Positions 3,270 to 27,879 of a stretch of 27,879 nucleotides of DNA are shown piece after piece. Made by a program: the position numbers and the translations under genes. This DNA comes from a virus, in IMG/VR virus record IMGVR_UViG_3300046515_000164, positions 1 through 27,879 of that record; one strand, 5' to 3'. The first letter of the stretch is position 1; every line of letters begins with the position of its first letter. The notes under the pieces are model-generated. The model ran no database searches and had not been told where the DNA came from. It was given only the letters and a program-made list of their open reading frames with translations.

Positions 3270-3830
3270 TCAATGCGAGTGATTGCTGCTGTTGCCCCCG
3301 GCGTCCATGATCGTGCCGGCGCCGGTGATGTCGCCGGATACACTCAGCGCGCCGTCGATGCTCACCTCACCCGCCAGGGTGATCTGGCTGGCCGTCACCC
3401 GGATTTCAGCCGGCGTCACTTCAAACTGCGAGCCACCGACCGCGATGGTCGCGCGGCTGCCATTGGGCAGGTCAATGCTGTAACTGCCGGCCTGCCAGTC
3501 GTAGATCAGCGAGCCGCCATCGTCGAAGTACCAGGCCTCAACGTGATCGCGGTTGTCCGGCGGCGTCCCGGCGTTGCCATACAGCCCCGGGATAAAAGTG
3601 CCCATGGCCGGGTCCCCACTGGGGCTGAACAATGCGCCTTGCTCCCCCGGACTCGGCGCCCGCCAGTGGCGGGCCTTGCCGGCGGCCAGGCTGTGCCAGC
3701 GCACCCAGGCACTGACCCAGGTACCGGCCTTGACCCGCACCCGGCCGGCCATCAGATCGATGCCGACCACCACACAGGGCAGCAGCATCGCCGCGATCAT
3801 CCGGTCGTGTTCAGCGCTGGCGTATCCCAT
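3270..3830 (-). CDS. Baseplate assembly protein V (P2 gpV-like spike)
   Basis: The 186-residue product starts MGYASAEHDRMIAAMLLPCVVVGIDLMAGRVRVKAGTWVSAWVRWHSLAAG, an OB-fold-like N-terminus of the gpV family. The middle contains DWQAGSYSIDLPNGSRATIAVGGSQFEVTPAEIRVTASQITLAGEVSIDGALSVSGDITGAG, a repetitive beta-helix section typical of the membrane-piercing spike. It ends in the His-containing tail NHSH; histidines near the tip bind iron in known spikes. The ATG at 3830 was chosen because GGAGG lies 8 bases upstream; it overlaps the end of the preceding gene. Confidence 0.9.
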   Translation of the reverse strand: MGYASAEHDRMIAAMLLPCVVVGIDLMAGRVRVKAGTWVSAWVRWHSLAAGKARHWRAPSPGEQGALFSPSGDPAMGTFIPGLYGNAGTPPDNRDHVEAWYFDDGGSLIYDWQAGSYSIDLPNGSRATIAVGGSQFEVTPAEIRVTASQITLAGEVSIDGALSVSGDITGAGTIMDAGGNSSNHSH

Positions 3831-22314: not shown

Positions 22315-22764
22315 ATGTTCGAAATGAAAAAACTCTTCGGAAAACAAGTCGGCAATGCCCAGGCCGAAATGAAGAAGGTCGTTAACCGCGACTTGATGCA
22401 GGCCATTGTCGGTGGCGGCCTATTGGTCGCTGCGGCTGATGGTGAGATTGAAGCCAGCGAGGTTTCCAAGCTGGATGAGTTGATTCGCTCCAACCCGAAT
22501 TTGACGCACTTCGGCAGCGAGATCACCGAAACTATCAATCGTTTTACAGGCCAGTTGAACGCCAACTTTCAAGTAGGTCGATTGGCGATCAAGCGGGAGC
22601 TGGCCGACATCAAAAACGTTCCGGCCGACGCGGAGGAAGCCTTCGTCAACGTTCTTGCCGTTGCCCAGGCTGATGGTCAGATCGAGCCAGCAGAGTTGGT
22701 GGTGCTGAAGGAAATAGGCATGCACTTCGGTCTGCGCCTGGCTGACTACGGTATCGAGGCGTGA
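22315..22764 (+). CDS. TerB-like protein, first gene of the PL operon
   Basis: The 149-residue product is MFEMKKLFGKQVGNAQAEMKKVVNRDLMQAIVGGGLLVAAADGEIEASEVSKLDELIRSNPNL...VLAVAQADGQIEPAELVVLKEIGMHFGL. The paired AAADGEIEASE and AQADGQIEPAE segments are the TerB/DjlA-type metal-binding repeat of tellurite-resistance proteins. Stand-alone TerB-like proteins occur in phages with unclear function. AAGGAAAC lies before the ATG. The 230-base leader carries boxA. Confidence 0.78.
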   Translation: MFEMKKLFGKQVGNAQAEMKKVVNRDLMQAIVGGGLLVAAADGEIEASEVSKLDELIRSNPNLTHFGSEITETINRFTGQLNANFQVGRLAIKRELADIKNVPADAEEAFVNVLAVAQADGQIEPAELVVLKEIGMHFGLRLADYGIEA

Positions 22765-23029: not shown

Positions 23030-23230
23030 ATGCTGATTTTGACTCGCAAAGCAGGCGAAAGCATCAACATAGGCAACAACATCACGATCACCGTACTGGG
23101 TGTGAGCGGTCAACAAGTACGCATCGGGACAAGCGCGCCCAAGGACGTCGCAGTGCATCGAGAAGAAATCACGCAGCGCATTCAGGCGAGTTTGTCGAAG
23201 TCCGCGATGACAACACCTGCGATCACTTAA
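23030..23230 (+). CDS. csrA: CsrA/RsmA-family RNA-binding regulator encoded by the phage
   Basis: The 66-residue product is [58 protein letters not shown]. It is a full-length CsrA: the N-terminal LTRKAGE strand and the VAVHREEI segment with the RNA-contacting Arg44 are intact. CsrA proteins bind GGA motifs in leader RNAs and control translation. In Pseudomonas the host homologues RsmA and RsmE control biofilm, secretion and metabolism. AAGGA precedes the ATG. Its place in the repressed PL operon implies expression during induction. Confidence 0.95.
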
Positions 23231-23380: not shown

Positions 23381-23653
23381 ATGCATCCATCATTTCAAGA
23401 GCGCATCGATGAAGTCGGTGAACTGCTGCAACGCACAAAGGCCGCCCGCTCCGGGTTCTACATTCGTATTGATCGACGAGCCCCATCTAAACCGGTGCGC
23501 TACCAAGTCGCCGGCGGAAGCTTCGGCATGTATCAGATTAAAGACCTCACCACCGGCAAGACTCGCGCCTTTCGTAACGACTACAAGGCCGCTCACGACC
23601 TCGCCATGCAGTTTGAAGCAAAGGTCAATCGCCAAGTTGCAGTGACTCTATGA
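23381..23653 (+). CDS. Unknown small phage protein
   Basis: The 90-residue product is MHPSFQERIDEVGELLQRTKAARSGFYIRIDRRAPSKPVRYQVAGGSFGMYQIKDLTTGKTRAFRNDYKAAHDLAMQFEAKVNRQVAVTL. It is basic, with a helix-beta-helix look, and I do not recognise it. GAGGG lies before the ATG, and its TGA overlaps the next ATG as ATGA. Early phage operon position. Confidence 0.7.
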   Translation: MHPSFQERIDEVGELLQRTKAARSGFYIRIDRRAPSKPVRYQVAGGSFGMYQIKDLTTGKTRAFRNDYKAAHDLAMQFEAKVNRQVAVTL

Positions 23654-24111
23654 AAAAGCGAAAGCCCAACAACATGCGGACCCGGATAGAGCGAGCGATC
23701 CGGGCACTGCTCAATGCCAATCACGTTGCGGTGGTCCACATCGACCCCAGCAGACGCCAAGGGATGATCAACAGGAAGAGCTGCAAGAGCATCCCGCCAG
23801 GACAACGCATGGCCGAAGCAATCTGCGACGTTGCCCATCGCTGGACGATCTATGTCAGCGTCCAGTGTCGAGATCAGCGCGGCCACCGCTACACCAAATC
23901 GGTAGAGGTCGCCCCTCAAGGCAACTATCTGGCCGCCCACCTCGAAGACGTGATCGAGGACACCTACAAAGCCCTGGTCGCCGAGAGCAATCCGAATCAT
24001 CGGGTCGCTTCAGGCTGGATCGCCATTCCCGCCGAGGTCTCGCTGACTGAAGAACAGGCCGCCCGGGTGTTCGACGCCGTGGGTGTCTGGAATCAGCAGA
24101 TAGCAGCATGA
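23650..24111 (+). CDS. Unknown phage protein
   Basis: The 153-residue product starts MKKRKPNNMRTRIERAIRALLNANHVAVVHIDPSRRQGMINRKSCKSIPPGQRMAEAICDVAHRWTIYVSVQCRDQRGHRYTKSVEV. It has a very basic N-terminus, then mixed alpha/beta with acidic C-terminal helices (EDVIEDTYKALVAES, LTEEQAARVFDAVGVWN). I do not recognise it. It is coupled to the gene before by an ATGA overlap. A nucleic-acid-binding role would fit the basic start but is only inference. Confidence 0.68.
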   Translation: MKKRKPNNMRTRIERAIRALLNANHVAVVHIDPSRRQGMINRKSCKSIPPGQRMAEAICDVAHRWTIYVSVQCRDQRGHRYTKSVEVAPQGNYLAAHLEDVIEDTYKALVAESNPNHRVASGWIAIPAEVSLTEEQAARVFDAVGVWNQQIAA

Positions 24112-24245
24112 AGCGAGTTAGCAGCCAGCGGCGCCGACGCCTTCGTCAGCCTCAACTCAACCTTCCCCCCAGCGGCCTATTGGCCATCCCGGAGAAACAG
24201 CCATGCCCATTCCCACCGACGCCGCAGCATTCCTCGAAGAGTTGA
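24108..24245 (+). CDS. Possible 45-residue basic peptide
   Basis: This short frame opens by an ATGA overlap with the gene before it, which suggests coupling: MKRVSSQRRRRLRQPQLNLP and on. It is arginine- and proline-rich and its 3' part overlaps the better-supported frame at 24203, so it may be only a chance frame. Confidence 0.3.
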   Translation: MKRVSSQRRRRLRQPQLNLPPSGLLAIPEKQPCPFPPTPQHSSKS

Positions 24246-24295
24246 ACGGCGGCGCATTCACAAACCAAACCGGCCTACATCGATTGATGTACTGA
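24203..24295 (+). pseudogene. Truncated 5' end of a phage gene
   Basis: GGAG lies 8 bases before the ATG. The 30 codons read MPIPTDAAAFLEELNGGAFT then NQTGLHRLMY. The start resembles the N-terminus of a family of about 100 residues that I remember from Pseudomonas prophages (xFLEELNGGxFxxx followed by a helix and a beta-rich body). Similarity stops after about residue 22, exactly where base composition turns AT-rich, so the gene seems to have been cut by arrival of the neighbouring cassette. The family memory has not been checked. Confidence 0.5.
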
Positions 24296-24305
24296 TGCCC
24301 TATAA

Positions 24306-25181
24306 CTACTCACCATTATCTAGCCAGTGAAATAAATCATCAGCCCCGTTCAAAAGACTTGACTGTTCCACGGAACAAGAAAGTCCAAAAGATTTTGCAA
24401 TTGCGCCAACAGCCTTAACATACGGCCTCCCTACAAAAGGCGATACATAAACTCCATCAATAAGACTAAAAACATCGCAGTGCGCCATATATGCCTTAAT
24501 AACAAAATCATCCAAATTATTTACATCTAGGTCAGGACACAAAAAAGCACGCACCTCGTTCTCATGCGAATAAGATATTCTTTTTAGCAACGGCATAATA
24601 TGCCCATCGACAACACAATCAGATGGAGCAATAGTTGAATCTGAATAATCTAAATACTTCACCTTCCCAAGGAAAATCTTTGTTTGTCTTTCCGTCGCTA
24701 TCGCAGACTCCAAAGCGTGCCTTAGCTTACCAACAGTAGTTTTTACAGCAACTCCTTTTCCTTGATCACTGTAAAGCTTCCACATAGCTTCTGATTGATA
24801 CTCAGAATAATACCAGCAACTTACCAGCGTCCCTTTTGACAGCAAATTGAACAGCTTGCGAAACACCGCTGAACGTGTTGCCAGTTGATCTTTAGCTTTT
24901 TGTATTGCCGCAACAAACTCTGGTGTTTTTTGATGGTTCGAGCTTTCCATTAAAGACACATATTCGATTACATCACTATAAACATGATCACTCACTGAAT
25001 ACATTGCTTTAATGGCCACAGCCGGAGGAAAACCTTCATATGGATCAGAAGTCATATATGAGTCAAGAGGCGCAAAATAGACACCGCCATCATCCAGCAA
25101 ATTTACAAACTTATCCAATGACATATATCTCCATAAAACCATGTCATCATTTAAACTTTTCAGCACCTCTACTTCCACCAT
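24306..25181 (-). CDS. DUF2971 protein, AT-rich, against the operon direction
   Basis: The 291-residue product starts MVEVEVLKSLNDDMVLWRYMSLDKFVNLLDDGGVYFAPLDSYMTSDPYEGFPP. The DUF2971 pattern is present: WRYMSLDKFxxLL, a YFAPLDSYxxSDPYEG loop, VSCWYYSEYQSEAMWKLYSDQGKGVAVKT (about 120-147), VKYLDY, and SHENEVRAFL (about 214-223). Function of DUF2971 is not settled; members are scattered among mobile regions and near defence genes. The gene is clearly AT-richer than all neighbours. GGAGG sits almost on the ATG, so the GTG at 25178 is an alternative start. The promoter was not identified. Confidence 0.82.
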   Translation of the reverse strand: MVEVEVLKSLNDDMVLWRYMSLDKFVNLLDDGGVYFAPLDSYMTSDPYEGFPPAVAIKAMYSVSDHVYSDVIEYVSLMESSNHQKTPEFVAAIQKAKDQLATRSAVFRKLFNLLSKGTLVSCWYYSEYQSEAMWKLYSDQGKGVAVKTTVGKLRHALESAIATERQTKIFLGKVKYLDYSDSTIAPSDCVVDGHIMPLLKRISYSHENEVRAFLCPDLDVNNLDDFVIKAYMAHCDVFSLIDGVYVSPFVGRPYVKAVGAIAKSFGLSCSVEQSSLLNGADDLFHWLDNGE

Positions 25182-25234
25182 ACCTCCTTATGCCTGCTTC
25201 ATATCAGGCCGAACACCAATCTCGTCCCAACGAA

Positions 25235-25699
25235 TCACACCAACTGATGAGCTAAGCGAGAAAGCACAGCTGCGTAGGCCTCAGAAAAATATCCTCTGAC
25301 CCGAGGATCGTTCACGAATTTAATTCGGAAATCAGCCATTTCAGGCTCTTCCTCCACTTCGAATGTATCGAGAAAGGCGTCTTGCTCTGCGATCAGGATT
25401 TCGGGTTGGTCGTACCCATCAAACTGGCTCCCTGTAATATCTATTTGGAAGCGATCAAACCTCAGCCAGACGTGACTAACCAATTCTCCACCTTGGCCGC
25501 CGCCCGCGCCCGAAACTCGAAGAGCGCCCGGAAAACCCTGATCCGATAAATACGCGGCGAGCAACATTGATGAATCATCACACGACGCAAATGGAAACCT
25601 GTCCGTGATCGAGATCTGAAATGGAAAACCTCCCCATGAGCATTCCCGAACCGCAGTTCTGAACGGCCTCACCAGTTCAAGCAAATCACATCGTTCCAT
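25235..25699 (-). CDS. Transglutaminase-like protein with Cys-His-Asp set, unknown role
   Basis: I chose the ATG at 25699 because GGAGG is 8 bases upstream, giving 154 residues; the frame is open 20 codons further. FASCDDSSMLLAAYLSDQGF (Cys40), SHVWLRF (His76) and FQIDITGSQFDG (Asp87) form the order and spacing of the transglutaminase/papain-like triad. The 'HxWLxF...DIT..QF' pattern recurs in small uncharacterised bacterial proteins. It is divergent from the DUF2786 gene and 50 bases upstream of the DUF2971 gene on the same strand, so they may form one unit. Catalysis has not been shown for such proteins as far as I know. Confidence 0.7.
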   Translation of the reverse strand: MERCDLLELVRPFRTAVRECSWGGFPFQISITDRFPFASCDDSSMLLAAYLSDQGFPGALRVSGAGGGQGGELVSHVWLRFDRFQIDITGSQFDGYDQPEILIAEQDAFLDTFEVEEEPEMADFRIKFVNDPRVRGYFSEAYAAVLSRLAHQLV

Positions 25700-25748
25700 C
25701 TGCAACCTCCATTTTGAATCGCTCCAAATATACCTGCGAGAGTCCCCT

Positions 25749-26528
25749 ATGTCCGACAATCACATCGACGAAAAGAAACTCGAGCGAGCGCTCCGTAAAA
25801 TCAAGCACTGCTTGGCCCTATCCACGAGTGCCAATGAGAACGAAGCGGCCACGGCACTTCGGCAAGCACAAGCGCTGATGCGTGAATATCGATTGACCGA
25901 GATGGACGTGAAGCTCAGCGACGTCGGAGAGATCGAATCTCAATTCTCTCGCAACGAGCGTAGGCCTATGTGGGATCAGCAGTTGAGCGGCGCTGTTGCC
26001 GAAGTGTTCAGCTGCACCTCACTGCGCAACAGACAATGGTGCAAAACCAAGCAACGAGTAGTTGAGCGCGCATCATTCGTCGGAGTTACACCAGCTCAGA
26101 ATATTGCGCTGTATGCCTACGAAGCACTACTGACCAAGCTAACCACGGCGCGCAAGGAGTACGCCGCTGGTGTTCGGTCGGGCAAACATCTCAGCTCGTA
26201 TTCTGCCGAAACGGCTGGTGACCACTTCGCCCTTGCCTGGGTCGGTCAAGTCTACGGAAAGCTTCGGGCTTTAATCCCGCAAGGCGAGGAAGACAGCATC
26301 GCCACGTCAAGTGATGGTCGTGGTCTAGTAACCCTGCAATCACAGGACAAGGCGCTGATCGCCGAGTACCTAGCCAATAACGGCGTTGGCAAAGCCCGAA
26401 AGGCGCGTGAGACCGAGCTCGATTGGAACGCCCAAATTGCGGGCATGCTCGCGGGGCGAGACGTAGACCTGCACGCCGGCATTGCGCGCGGTGACGATGA
26501 TGTTCTCGCGCTATGTGCGATTGCCTGA
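25749..26528 (+). CDS. DUF2786 domain protein
   Basis: In this 259-residue product, residues 9-50 (KKLERALRKIKHCLALSTSANENEAATALRQAQALMREYRLTEMDV) are the DUF2786 motif, a helical N-terminal unit. The C-terminal part (FVGVTPAQNIALYAYEALLTKLTTARKEYAAG...FALAWVGQVYGKLRAL) is its usual partner domain (DUF7168 type). The family is common in Pseudomonas phages; function unknown. It stands between the inserted cassette and the integration genes in the normal operon direction. Its start is divergent to the transglutaminase-like gene across about 50 bases, where promoters for both should lie. Confidence 0.85.
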   Translation: MSDNHIDEKKLERALRKIKHCLALSTSANENEAATALRQAQALMREYRLTEMDVKLSDVGEIESQFSRNERRPMWDQQLSGAVAEVFSCTSLRNRQWCKTKQRVVERASFVGVTPAQNIALYAYEALLTKLTTARKEYAAGVRSGKHLSSYSAETAGDHFALAWVGQVYGKLRALIPQGEEDSIATSSDGRGLVTLQSQDKALIAEYLANNGVGKARKARETELDWNAQIAGMLAGRDVDLHAGIARGDDDVLALCAIA

Positions 26529-26568: not shown

Positions 26569-26658
26569 ATACATGCCAACCCTCGCCTCACTGCCTCCGT
26601 TTAAAACGCGAGCAAGTTTAACCACCTTCTGCCGCCACGCGGCGACATGGAGCATCAC

Positions 26659-26898
26659 ATGGAATCCGAAATCCTTTCGCCCGCAGAGCTGGAGGAACTC
26701 ACTGGCTATAAAGCCCCAGCTTCCCAAAAACAATGGCTAGTAGATCGCCAGTGGGTGTTCGAGGTAAACCGCAACGGCCCACGAGTTGGTCGGCACTATG
26801 CCCGAATGAAGCTGGGCTTTGTGATACCTACTTCTCTCAACCCACCCCCTACACCCACAGCTCCAGTATGGACGCCAGACTTCTCACGAGTGAATTGA
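26659..26898 (+). CDS. DUF4224 protein, excisionase position
   Basis: The 79-residue product MESEILSPAELEELTGYKAPASQKQWLVDRQWVFEVNRNGPRVGRHYARMKLG matches the DUF4224 pattern closely: 'LSxxELxELTGYKxxxxQxxWL' then 'GRPxVxR'. Genes of this family almost always precede a phage integrase, where an excisionase or directionality factor would be. I chose the ATG at 26659 over 26647 because GGAG lies 6 bases before it. Its stop is one base before the integrase ATG. Confidence 0.88.
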   Translation: MESEILSPAELEELTGYKAPASQKQWLVDRQWVFEVNRNGPRVGRHYARMKLGFVIPTSLNPPPTPTAPVWTPDFSRVN

Positions 26899-26899
26899 A

Positions 26900-27879
26900 A
26901 TGCGTCCCCGCAAAGCCGAAACACGTAATTTACCGCCAAGGATGTATCAGTGGACACGCCCCCGAAAAAGCGGAAAAACTTGGATTGCTTACTACTACCT
27001 GGACATATTGGGAAAGGCGATACCGCTAGGCAAAGACTTGGACAAAGCCAGGGTCAAATGGGCCGAACTCGAAGCCAAGGAAGCGCCGCTCGATCTGCGC
27101 ACAATGAAGGGCATCTTCGACCGATACATCCGCGACATAGTCTCCAAGAAAGCGGCGCGCACCCAGAAGGACAACCTCGCGGAAATCAAGCAACTGCGAC
27201 CGATGTTCGACAGCGCACCTATTGACTCGATCACCCCAGCCACGATTGCTGGGTACCGGGATGCACGGACGGCCAAGGTGCGGGCTAACCGTGAGATCGC
27301 CATCCTCTCCCATGTTTTCAATATCGCTCGGGAATGGGGGCTGACGACCAAAGAAAATCCCTGCCAAGGCGTTCGCAAAAACAAGGAGACTCCGAGGGAT
27401 TATTACGCGAATGACGTGGTTTGGGTTGCTGTTTACAAGAAGGCAGCTCAAGAGCTGAAAGACGCGATGGACCTGGCTTACCTGACCGGGCAACGACCGG
27501 CGGATGTATTGGTCATGCGGAAGGATGACATAGAGGGGGGATACTTGGGTGTGCAGCAGAACAAGACGCACAAGAAGCTGCGTATCCAGATGACTGTCGG
27601 CGATGAGGCAAACAGCCTAGGGCAGTTGATCGCGAAAATGGCCGAGCGCAACGCTCAGCACATTTGCAGCTATCTGATTGTGAGCGCGCGCGGTAAACGC
27701 ATGACGGCGAAGATGCTTCGTGACAGGTGGGACAAGGCTCGGGAAAAGGCCAAGAAAGAGGCGAATGAACTCGGCGACACTCTCCTGGCCGAAAAAATCG
27801 GCAGCTTCCAGTTCCGTGACATCAGGCCAAAAGCTGCGTCAGAAATCCTGGACGTCGGCGATGCGAGCCTTCTCCTAGG
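26900..27879 (+). CDS. int: Phage integrase, tyrosine recombinase (3' end cut by window edge)
   Basis: The frame is open to the window edge (326 codons). The product starts MRPRKAETRNLPPRMYQWTRPRKSGKTWIAYYYLDILGKAIPLGKDL, an arm-binding domain, then a core-binding domain (TMKGIFDRYIRDIVSKKAARTQKDNLAEIKQLRPMF...NREIAILSHVFNIAREWG) and the catalytic start, AYLTGQRPADVLVMRKDDI with the first Arg, the Lys in QNKTHKKLRIQ and FQFRDIRPKA. The final His-Tyr lies outside. The RDIR in place of HxLR is worth noting but occurs in phage integrases. The attP site should be just to the right. Confidence 0.93.
   Translation, partial: MRPRKAETRNLPPRMYQWTRPRKSGKTWIAYYYLDILGKAIPLGKDLDKARVKWAELEAKEAPLDLRTMKGIFDRYIRDIVSKKAARTQKDNLAEIKQLRPMFDSAPIDSITPATIAGYRDARTAKVRANREIAILSHVFNIAREWGLTTKENPCQGVRKNKETPRDYYANDVVWVAVYKKAAQELKDAMDLAYLTGQRPADVLVMRKDDIEGGYLGVQQNKTHKKLRIQMTVGDEANSLGQLIAKMAERNAQHICSYLIVSARGKRMTAKMLRDRWDKAREKAKKEANELGDTLLAEKIGSFQFRDIRPKAASEILDVGDASLLL

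Follow-up and report, generated by a model that had tools for sequence, protein, structure and literature searches.

A DUF2971 gene and a C-H-D protein gene as neighbouring cargo in a two-position slot of a virus related to Pseudomonas phages

The window, i.e., the whole stretch of DNA under investigation, is a virus record of 27,879 bp whose best named relatives are Pseudomonas phages. Two reverse-strand genes are located just before its integration genes, one belonging to the DUF2971 family and one encoding a small protein with a Cys-His-Asp (C-H-D) triad. Their best reading, on comparison with related loci (indicated by L and a number), is that they are separate, exchangeable cargo genes which stand side by side by chance. 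A modular anatomy of the slot and an independent swapping of its cargo have been shown at the level of the aligned DNA. The complete interpretation, to which a probability of about 0.6 can be assigned, is that of a chance pair of independent moron genes in a two-position slot, where DUF2971 would be an exclusion effector with an ADP-ribosyltransferase (ART) fold and the C-H-D protein a cysteine enzyme.

According to the model proposed here, the slot would offer two cargo positions between the phage genes DUF2303 (deleted in the window) and DUF2786. Position X, occupied here by the C-H-D gene, would begin at a promoter-like segment extending over the start of the divergently oriented phage gene, whereas position Y, occupied by DUF2971, would begin at a shared leader with a Shine-Dalgarno site at its end. 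As the comparison shows, each cargo can be exchanged independently of the other, with breaks located within the conserved leader or promoter segments. Since both genes run against the phage operon, they could be expressed in the lysogen, where DUF2971, as a single-gene effector of exclusion or abortive infection, would modify a nucleic acid or a protein when infection takes place.

The features of the region are listed in Table 1. The reversed arrangement described in the original prediction is correct, both ORFs lying on the minus strand and the surrounding genes on the plus strand.

Table 1. Coordinates of the cargo slot and its flanks in the window
Feature	Positions	Strand	Basis or details
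Conserved phage gene, left flank of the slot	23650..24111	+	phrog_5434
Truncated phage gene, 31 codons left	24203..24295	+	N-terminus of 115-aa gene, BLASTN
DUF2971 gene, position-Y cargo	24306..25181	-	PF11185 1.4e-5; PDC-S31 1.4e-23
Degenerate copy of the shared leader	25182..25245	-	Hairpin GCCTG/CAGGC, AAGGAGG, promoter-like part
C-H-D (transglutaminase/YunG-like) gene, 154 aa, position-X cargo	25235..25699	-	C40, H76, D87
Promoter-like site CGGACA-17-TATATT, position X	25727..25755	-	Consensus match
DUF2786/DUF7168 phage gene, bordering the slot on the right	25749..26528	+	Pfam 3e-11 and 1.5e-15
Excisionase-like gene	26647..26898	+	phrog_4764 2.9e-25
Integrase, runs off the window	26900..27877	+	Pfam and PHROG matches

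The cargo slot and its two positions

The presence of a truncated phage gene beside the two genes, as originally proposed, was borne out: the short ORF remaining in the window matches the N-terminus of a 115-aa gene which is intact in L002 (6051-6398). The BLASTN homology of the window to L002, L003 and L152 breaks off at position 24275 in all three cases. About 1.19 kb of L003, comprising the remainder of the 115-aa gene and the DUF2303 gene, corresponds to 34 bp in the window; the junction of this deletion lies after 24275, and the DUF2303 gene, present in both L002 and L003, has been lost as well. L003 has, in the same slot, a DUF2971 gene 87-88% identical to that of the window, with DUF2786 and DUF2303 as its direct neighbours and no upstream partner; the window is equivalent to L003 with an insertion of about 533 bp that contains the C-H-D gene. 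In L002, a DUF2971 gene with the same degree of identity (87-88%) is found in this slot behind a different gene, encoding 364 aa and with no Pfam or PADLOC match. The nearest relative of the C-H-D gene (64%) was found in L020 (Pseudomonas brenneri), where the next gene encodes 85 aa; in the viral contig L262, which has a close copy of this L020 gene, the next gene encodes 76 aa.

The base composition of the two genes is different, which counts in favour of swapping. The DUF2971 gene (GC 39.7%, GC3 33.6%) is indeed much AT-richer than the DUF2786 gene (56.5%) and the window as a whole (57.6%); since the C-H-D gene has a GC content of 50.5% (GC3 49.0%), this description holds strictly for DUF2971. 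The view that these are foreign genes, placed independently in a variable slot that precedes the integration genes, is supported. As for the neighbourhood, a TerB-like gene (tellurite resistance family) is located at 22315-22764, sharing the strand of the phage genes to the left of the slot, and a CsrA/RsmA-like protein, recognized by eye, is encoded just left of the slot (23030-23230). Genes resembling PAPS reductase by eye, for which Pfam gave no match, are found at the border of the cargo slot in other loci (L020:7160-7951, L152:5172-5945 and L021:8458-9162); those of L020 and L152 apparently belong to one family, and different cargo (C-H-D or DUF2971) is located beside them.

At position X, the CGGACA hexamer of the promoter-like site extends over the start codon of DUF2786, the divergent phage gene. 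The number of promoter-like sites in the region is not above that of shuffled sequences, and this site is a consensus match among them. It is conserved upstream of the C-H-D genes of L020 and L262, which have their upstream DNA in common with the window gene, and its TATATT part is also located upstream of the 364-aa gene of L002. The alignment of the DNA upstream of the C-H-D gene with that of L020 had a score of 81, and none of 2000 shuffles was as good; the match with the DNA preceding the 364-aa gene of L002 is weaker (1 of 2000 shuffles as good).

At position Y, the DUF2971 gene of L003 is preceded by a leader with the consensus TGGCG..TTGATATGGGGTATTACGGGTGACCGGCATGGRGCCGGATCAAGGAGG. This leader is about 65 nt long and consists of a promoter-like part, a nearly invariant hairpin (CCGGC/GCCGG) and a Shine-Dalgarno site; its locations include L262-L326, L020:8442-8522 and L003:5905-5985. 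A 24-base core, with three positions left free, is found exactly in 65 viral contigs, and a 23-base version occurs in 11 of 79 Pseudomonas genomes, the reversed pattern occurring in none. In Pseudomonas prophages, strong copies of the leader precede at least 17 unrelated families of small genes, and the ten leader-borne cargo genes that were searched against Pfam gave no match. The same prophage stretch can contain up to four copies (L288; three in L286). In the phages phiAH14a, H66 and UFJF_PfDIW6, the leader is directed against the annotated operon, as in the window. In phage H66 (L341, KC262634.1), a leader-borne ORF of 108 aa is located from locus position 3501 onwards, on the strand opposite to the operon, and the start of this ORF has no annotated gene.

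A covariance model of the leader (R1) was built from 20 copies, those of L002, L004 and L005 not being among them; it finds the leader before DUF2971 in L005 (9.2e-10), L002 (2.6e-5) and L004 (5.4e-4), and it misses the leader of the window. The latter copy keeps the hairpin, as judged by folding, and the AAGGAGG sequence, and the stop codon of the C-H-D gene falls inside its motif. When its first half was locally aligned with L002, L003 and L004, respectively 5, 1 and 1 of 2000 block shuffles were as good. The leader has no match in Rfam and, the sequence of the hairpin being nearly invariant, covariation provides no evidence for its structure. The control of the leader by CsrA/RsmA was considered and dropped, the hairpin loop not being consistently GGA. 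Downstream of the leader, the GTG at 25178 seems more likely to be the start of DUF2971 than the ATG at 25181, since L003 reads ATA in the place of the latter.

Families and predicted folds of the two proteins

The DUF2971 protein is a member of PF11185, its score of 26.8 bits exceeding the Pfam gathering cut-off of 22; DUF2971 is the only family listed by Pfam, the DarT family (PF14487) being absent. With residues 121-278, it also matches PDC-S31, a candidate family of the PADLOC catalogue, which is matched by diverse relatives too. In the literature, the family is named in a genome reannotation, with no tested function found, and no paper naming PDC-S31 was retrieved; moreover, NCBIfam has no family for either the DUF2971 or the C-H-D protein, and a PDB sequence search with both gave no convincing match. 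Relatives of the DUF2971 gene are located in other prophages in well-defined positions. In L160, the gene lies between Phage_tail_S (tail-completion S) and Phage_base_V (baseplate V), both confirmed by Pfam, and the gene orders called in L157 and L161-L163 are similar; the S-V interval is presumably the site of P2 fun(Z). In L156, it adjoins the portal gene (confirmed), and L153 and L159 are similar. In P2-like phages, the region from gpA to the portal gene gpQ is known as a hotspot where anti-phage genes, old and tin among them, are located (PMC9122126). The PADLOC match, together with these relatives in P2-type exclusion slots, lends support to the proposal of a candidate anti-phage gene as far as DUF2971 is concerned.

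The AF2 model of the DUF2971 protein (mean pLDDT 94, pTM 0.89) suggests a fold most like those of ADP-ribosyltransferases (DarT, Tpt1). The six top structural matches in VIA all belong to DarT (Z 8.2 over 148 residues, at 3.9 A) or Tpt1 (Z 7.3), where a Z of about 8 is the level of the best matches obtained for models with no clear match; DarT1 and SopF appear further down, and the remaining rows are read as helical look-alikes. In Foldseek, DarT holds ranks 1-3 with a weak E value (0.027). Three profile comparisons with DarT gave nothing (hhalign P from 0.22 to 0.82; trimmed profile score 12.9 versus a shuffled mean of 13.9). Homology to DarT at the sequence level was rejected on this basis, and the likeness would be one of fold rather than of membership in the DarT family. 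The invariant residues are R18, in the first strand, S130, M133-W134 and E207-x-E209-x-R211, with E209 beginning a strand, and they may represent a candidate ART active site. DUF2971 is probably an NAD-dependent phage-exclusion effector, in which the use of NAD, the target and the phenotype are all presumed.

The predicted fold and the conserved triad of the C-H-D protein point to a small Cys-His-Asp enzyme, most likely an amidase, deamidase or protease. In its AF2 model (mean pLDDT 97.4; helix 40-53, strands 73-81 and 84-87), the conserved Cys stands at the start of a helix and the His and Asp on the next strands, as expected for papain/transglutaminase-like proteins. C40, H76 and D87 are invariant in an alignment of 68 sequences, and F35, P36, C40, H76, W78, D87, T89, Q92 and F93 in both alignments constructed. 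The better structural matches are mostly papain-like, including protein glutaminase, SseI, LapG and NTAQ1 (Z about 5 to 7), while BFVD gave weak matches and nothing better; the assignment as a transglutaminase-like protein agrees with these data. The window protein has no Pfam match at E 0.01 (best 0.19), it fits no NCBIfam or PADLOC family, and its 12.3 bits against YunG (PF24585) are below the cut-off of 27. Weak Pfam matches were found among the 68 relatives, to YunG in 19 and to Transglut_core in 10. The family, which spans Pseudomonadota, Bacillota, Actinomycetota, Bacteroidota and others, is broad and has no Pfam model of its own.

In L087 (7908-9932), a C-H-D domain forms part of a fusion, together with a TPR-like region and a HEPN domain of the LA2681 type. 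Some copies of the gene adjoin restriction-modification genes; in L028 and L070, they are located 78 and 4 bp, respectively, from apparent MmeI-like type IIG restriction-methylation genes. The PADLOC scan of near versus far neighbours of the C-H-D genes gave 185 versus 131 models in 150 versus 127 proteins, without a clear difference. Matches being present in both sets of neighbours, an enrichment of the family in defence islands was dropped.

Pairing and possible roles of the two genes

The two genes had been regarded as one paired system. If they formed a dedicated two-gene system, for defence or of the toxin-antitoxin kind, the C-H-D protein would process or inhibit DUF2971, or exclusion would need both. 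The genes are indeed adjacent, on the same strand and 53 bp apart, possibly on one transcript, and they may be co-transcribed in this prophage. Moreover, a DUF2971 gene is located near one C-H-D gene among about 140 loci, i.e., in a plasmid of Vibrio sp. HDW18 (L013 / L063, the same locus twice), where the C-H-D gene is followed by DUF2971 amid integron-type cassette genes. However, near-identical DUF2971 genes and close C-H-D genes are found without each other, their base composition differs, and their co-occurrence in Pseudomonas is at chance level: among 299 genomes, C-H-D is present in 25, DUF2971 in 16, and both in one (on separate contigs), versus 1.3 expected. Similarly, no C-H-D gene is located in the available flanks of the 49 viral DUF2971 loci (45 loci plus L002-L005). 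On the basis of this independent occurrence and chance-level co-occurrence, the paired system was rejected, and its probability is very low.

The role of DUF2971 might also be that of a phage counter-defence gene, an ART-type enzyme disabling a host or rival defence. The ART-like predicted fold would fit this possibility, and so would the occurrence of DUF2971 in phages and plasmids as well; a precedent exists in the anti-CRISPR AcrIF11, an ADP-ribosyltransferase whose gene is carried by phages and plasmids (PMC12421852). Against it, the family is found among the defence candidates (PDC-S31) and in the exclusion-gene slots of P2-like prophages, and the gene opposes the phage operon, as morons expressed in lysogeny do; the counter-defence role is, therefore, considered unlikely. 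It is similarly improbable that both genes serve host fitness through lysogenic conversion, without any anti-phage role, or that they are neutral cargo maintained by recombination at the leader. The leader-borne genes are mostly small, the ten tested lack Pfam matches, and PADLOC matches near C-H-D genes do not clearly exceed the far ones, all of which would be in keeping with such cargo, but the catalytic-type residues of both proteins are strongly conserved and neutral cargo would lose them. The reading as independent morons, with an ART-fold exclusion effector and a cysteine enzyme, is preferred, even though the weak Foldseek value for DarT, the null profiles, the window leader missed by R1 and the 53-bp gap count against it.

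On a wider scale, it is tentatively suggested, with less than even confidence, that the temperate phages of Pseudomonas might share a leader-based cargo system in which unrelated small reverse genes are exchanged, and that DUF2971 might be a new ART-type anti-phage branch. If this were true, the leader would let cargo be exchanged and perhaps co-regulated, with up to four copies per prophage. An attractive pairing is corrected into a testable anatomy, with two cargo positions and an upstream element for each of them. The shared leader also represents a simple DNA handle for locating prophage cargo genes, some of them apparently unannotated, such as the H66 ORF. Lastly, for DUF2971, a function-unknown family of phages, plasmids and prophages, the guess based on the fold names residues that can be tested.

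Comparison with known systems

The C-H-D family shares with YunG and Transglut_core the C-H-D order and the SHxW and DIT motifs, whereas the window protein has its own FPxxxC...DITxxQF signature. DarT of the DarTG system and other ADP-ribosyltransferases are the best structural matches of the DUF2971 model, whose predicted fold would resemble theirs; however, the DarT signature HDYVPFYF..SPML is absent as such from DUF2971, and there is no significant sequence or profile similarity. The DarG macrodomain partner is also missing beside the DUF2971 gene, whose neighbours encode the C-H-D protein and DUF2786, and real DarTG loci (L244-L246) are unlike the window locus.

By profile score, the window protein belongs to PDC-S31/PF11185, a single-gene family often found in prophages and plasmids; it differs in that its gene is preceded by the leader shared among Pseudomonas prophages, in a degenerate copy. 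As for the P2 slots, the slot of the window is different in that it precedes the excisionase and integrase genes and lies beside DUF2786, in a prophage without P2-like signs. Nevertheless, P2 old and tin and the morons of the S-V slot are comparable, each being a lone foreign gene placed in a temperate phage's variable slot, and relatives of the window DUF2971 gene occupy such slots.
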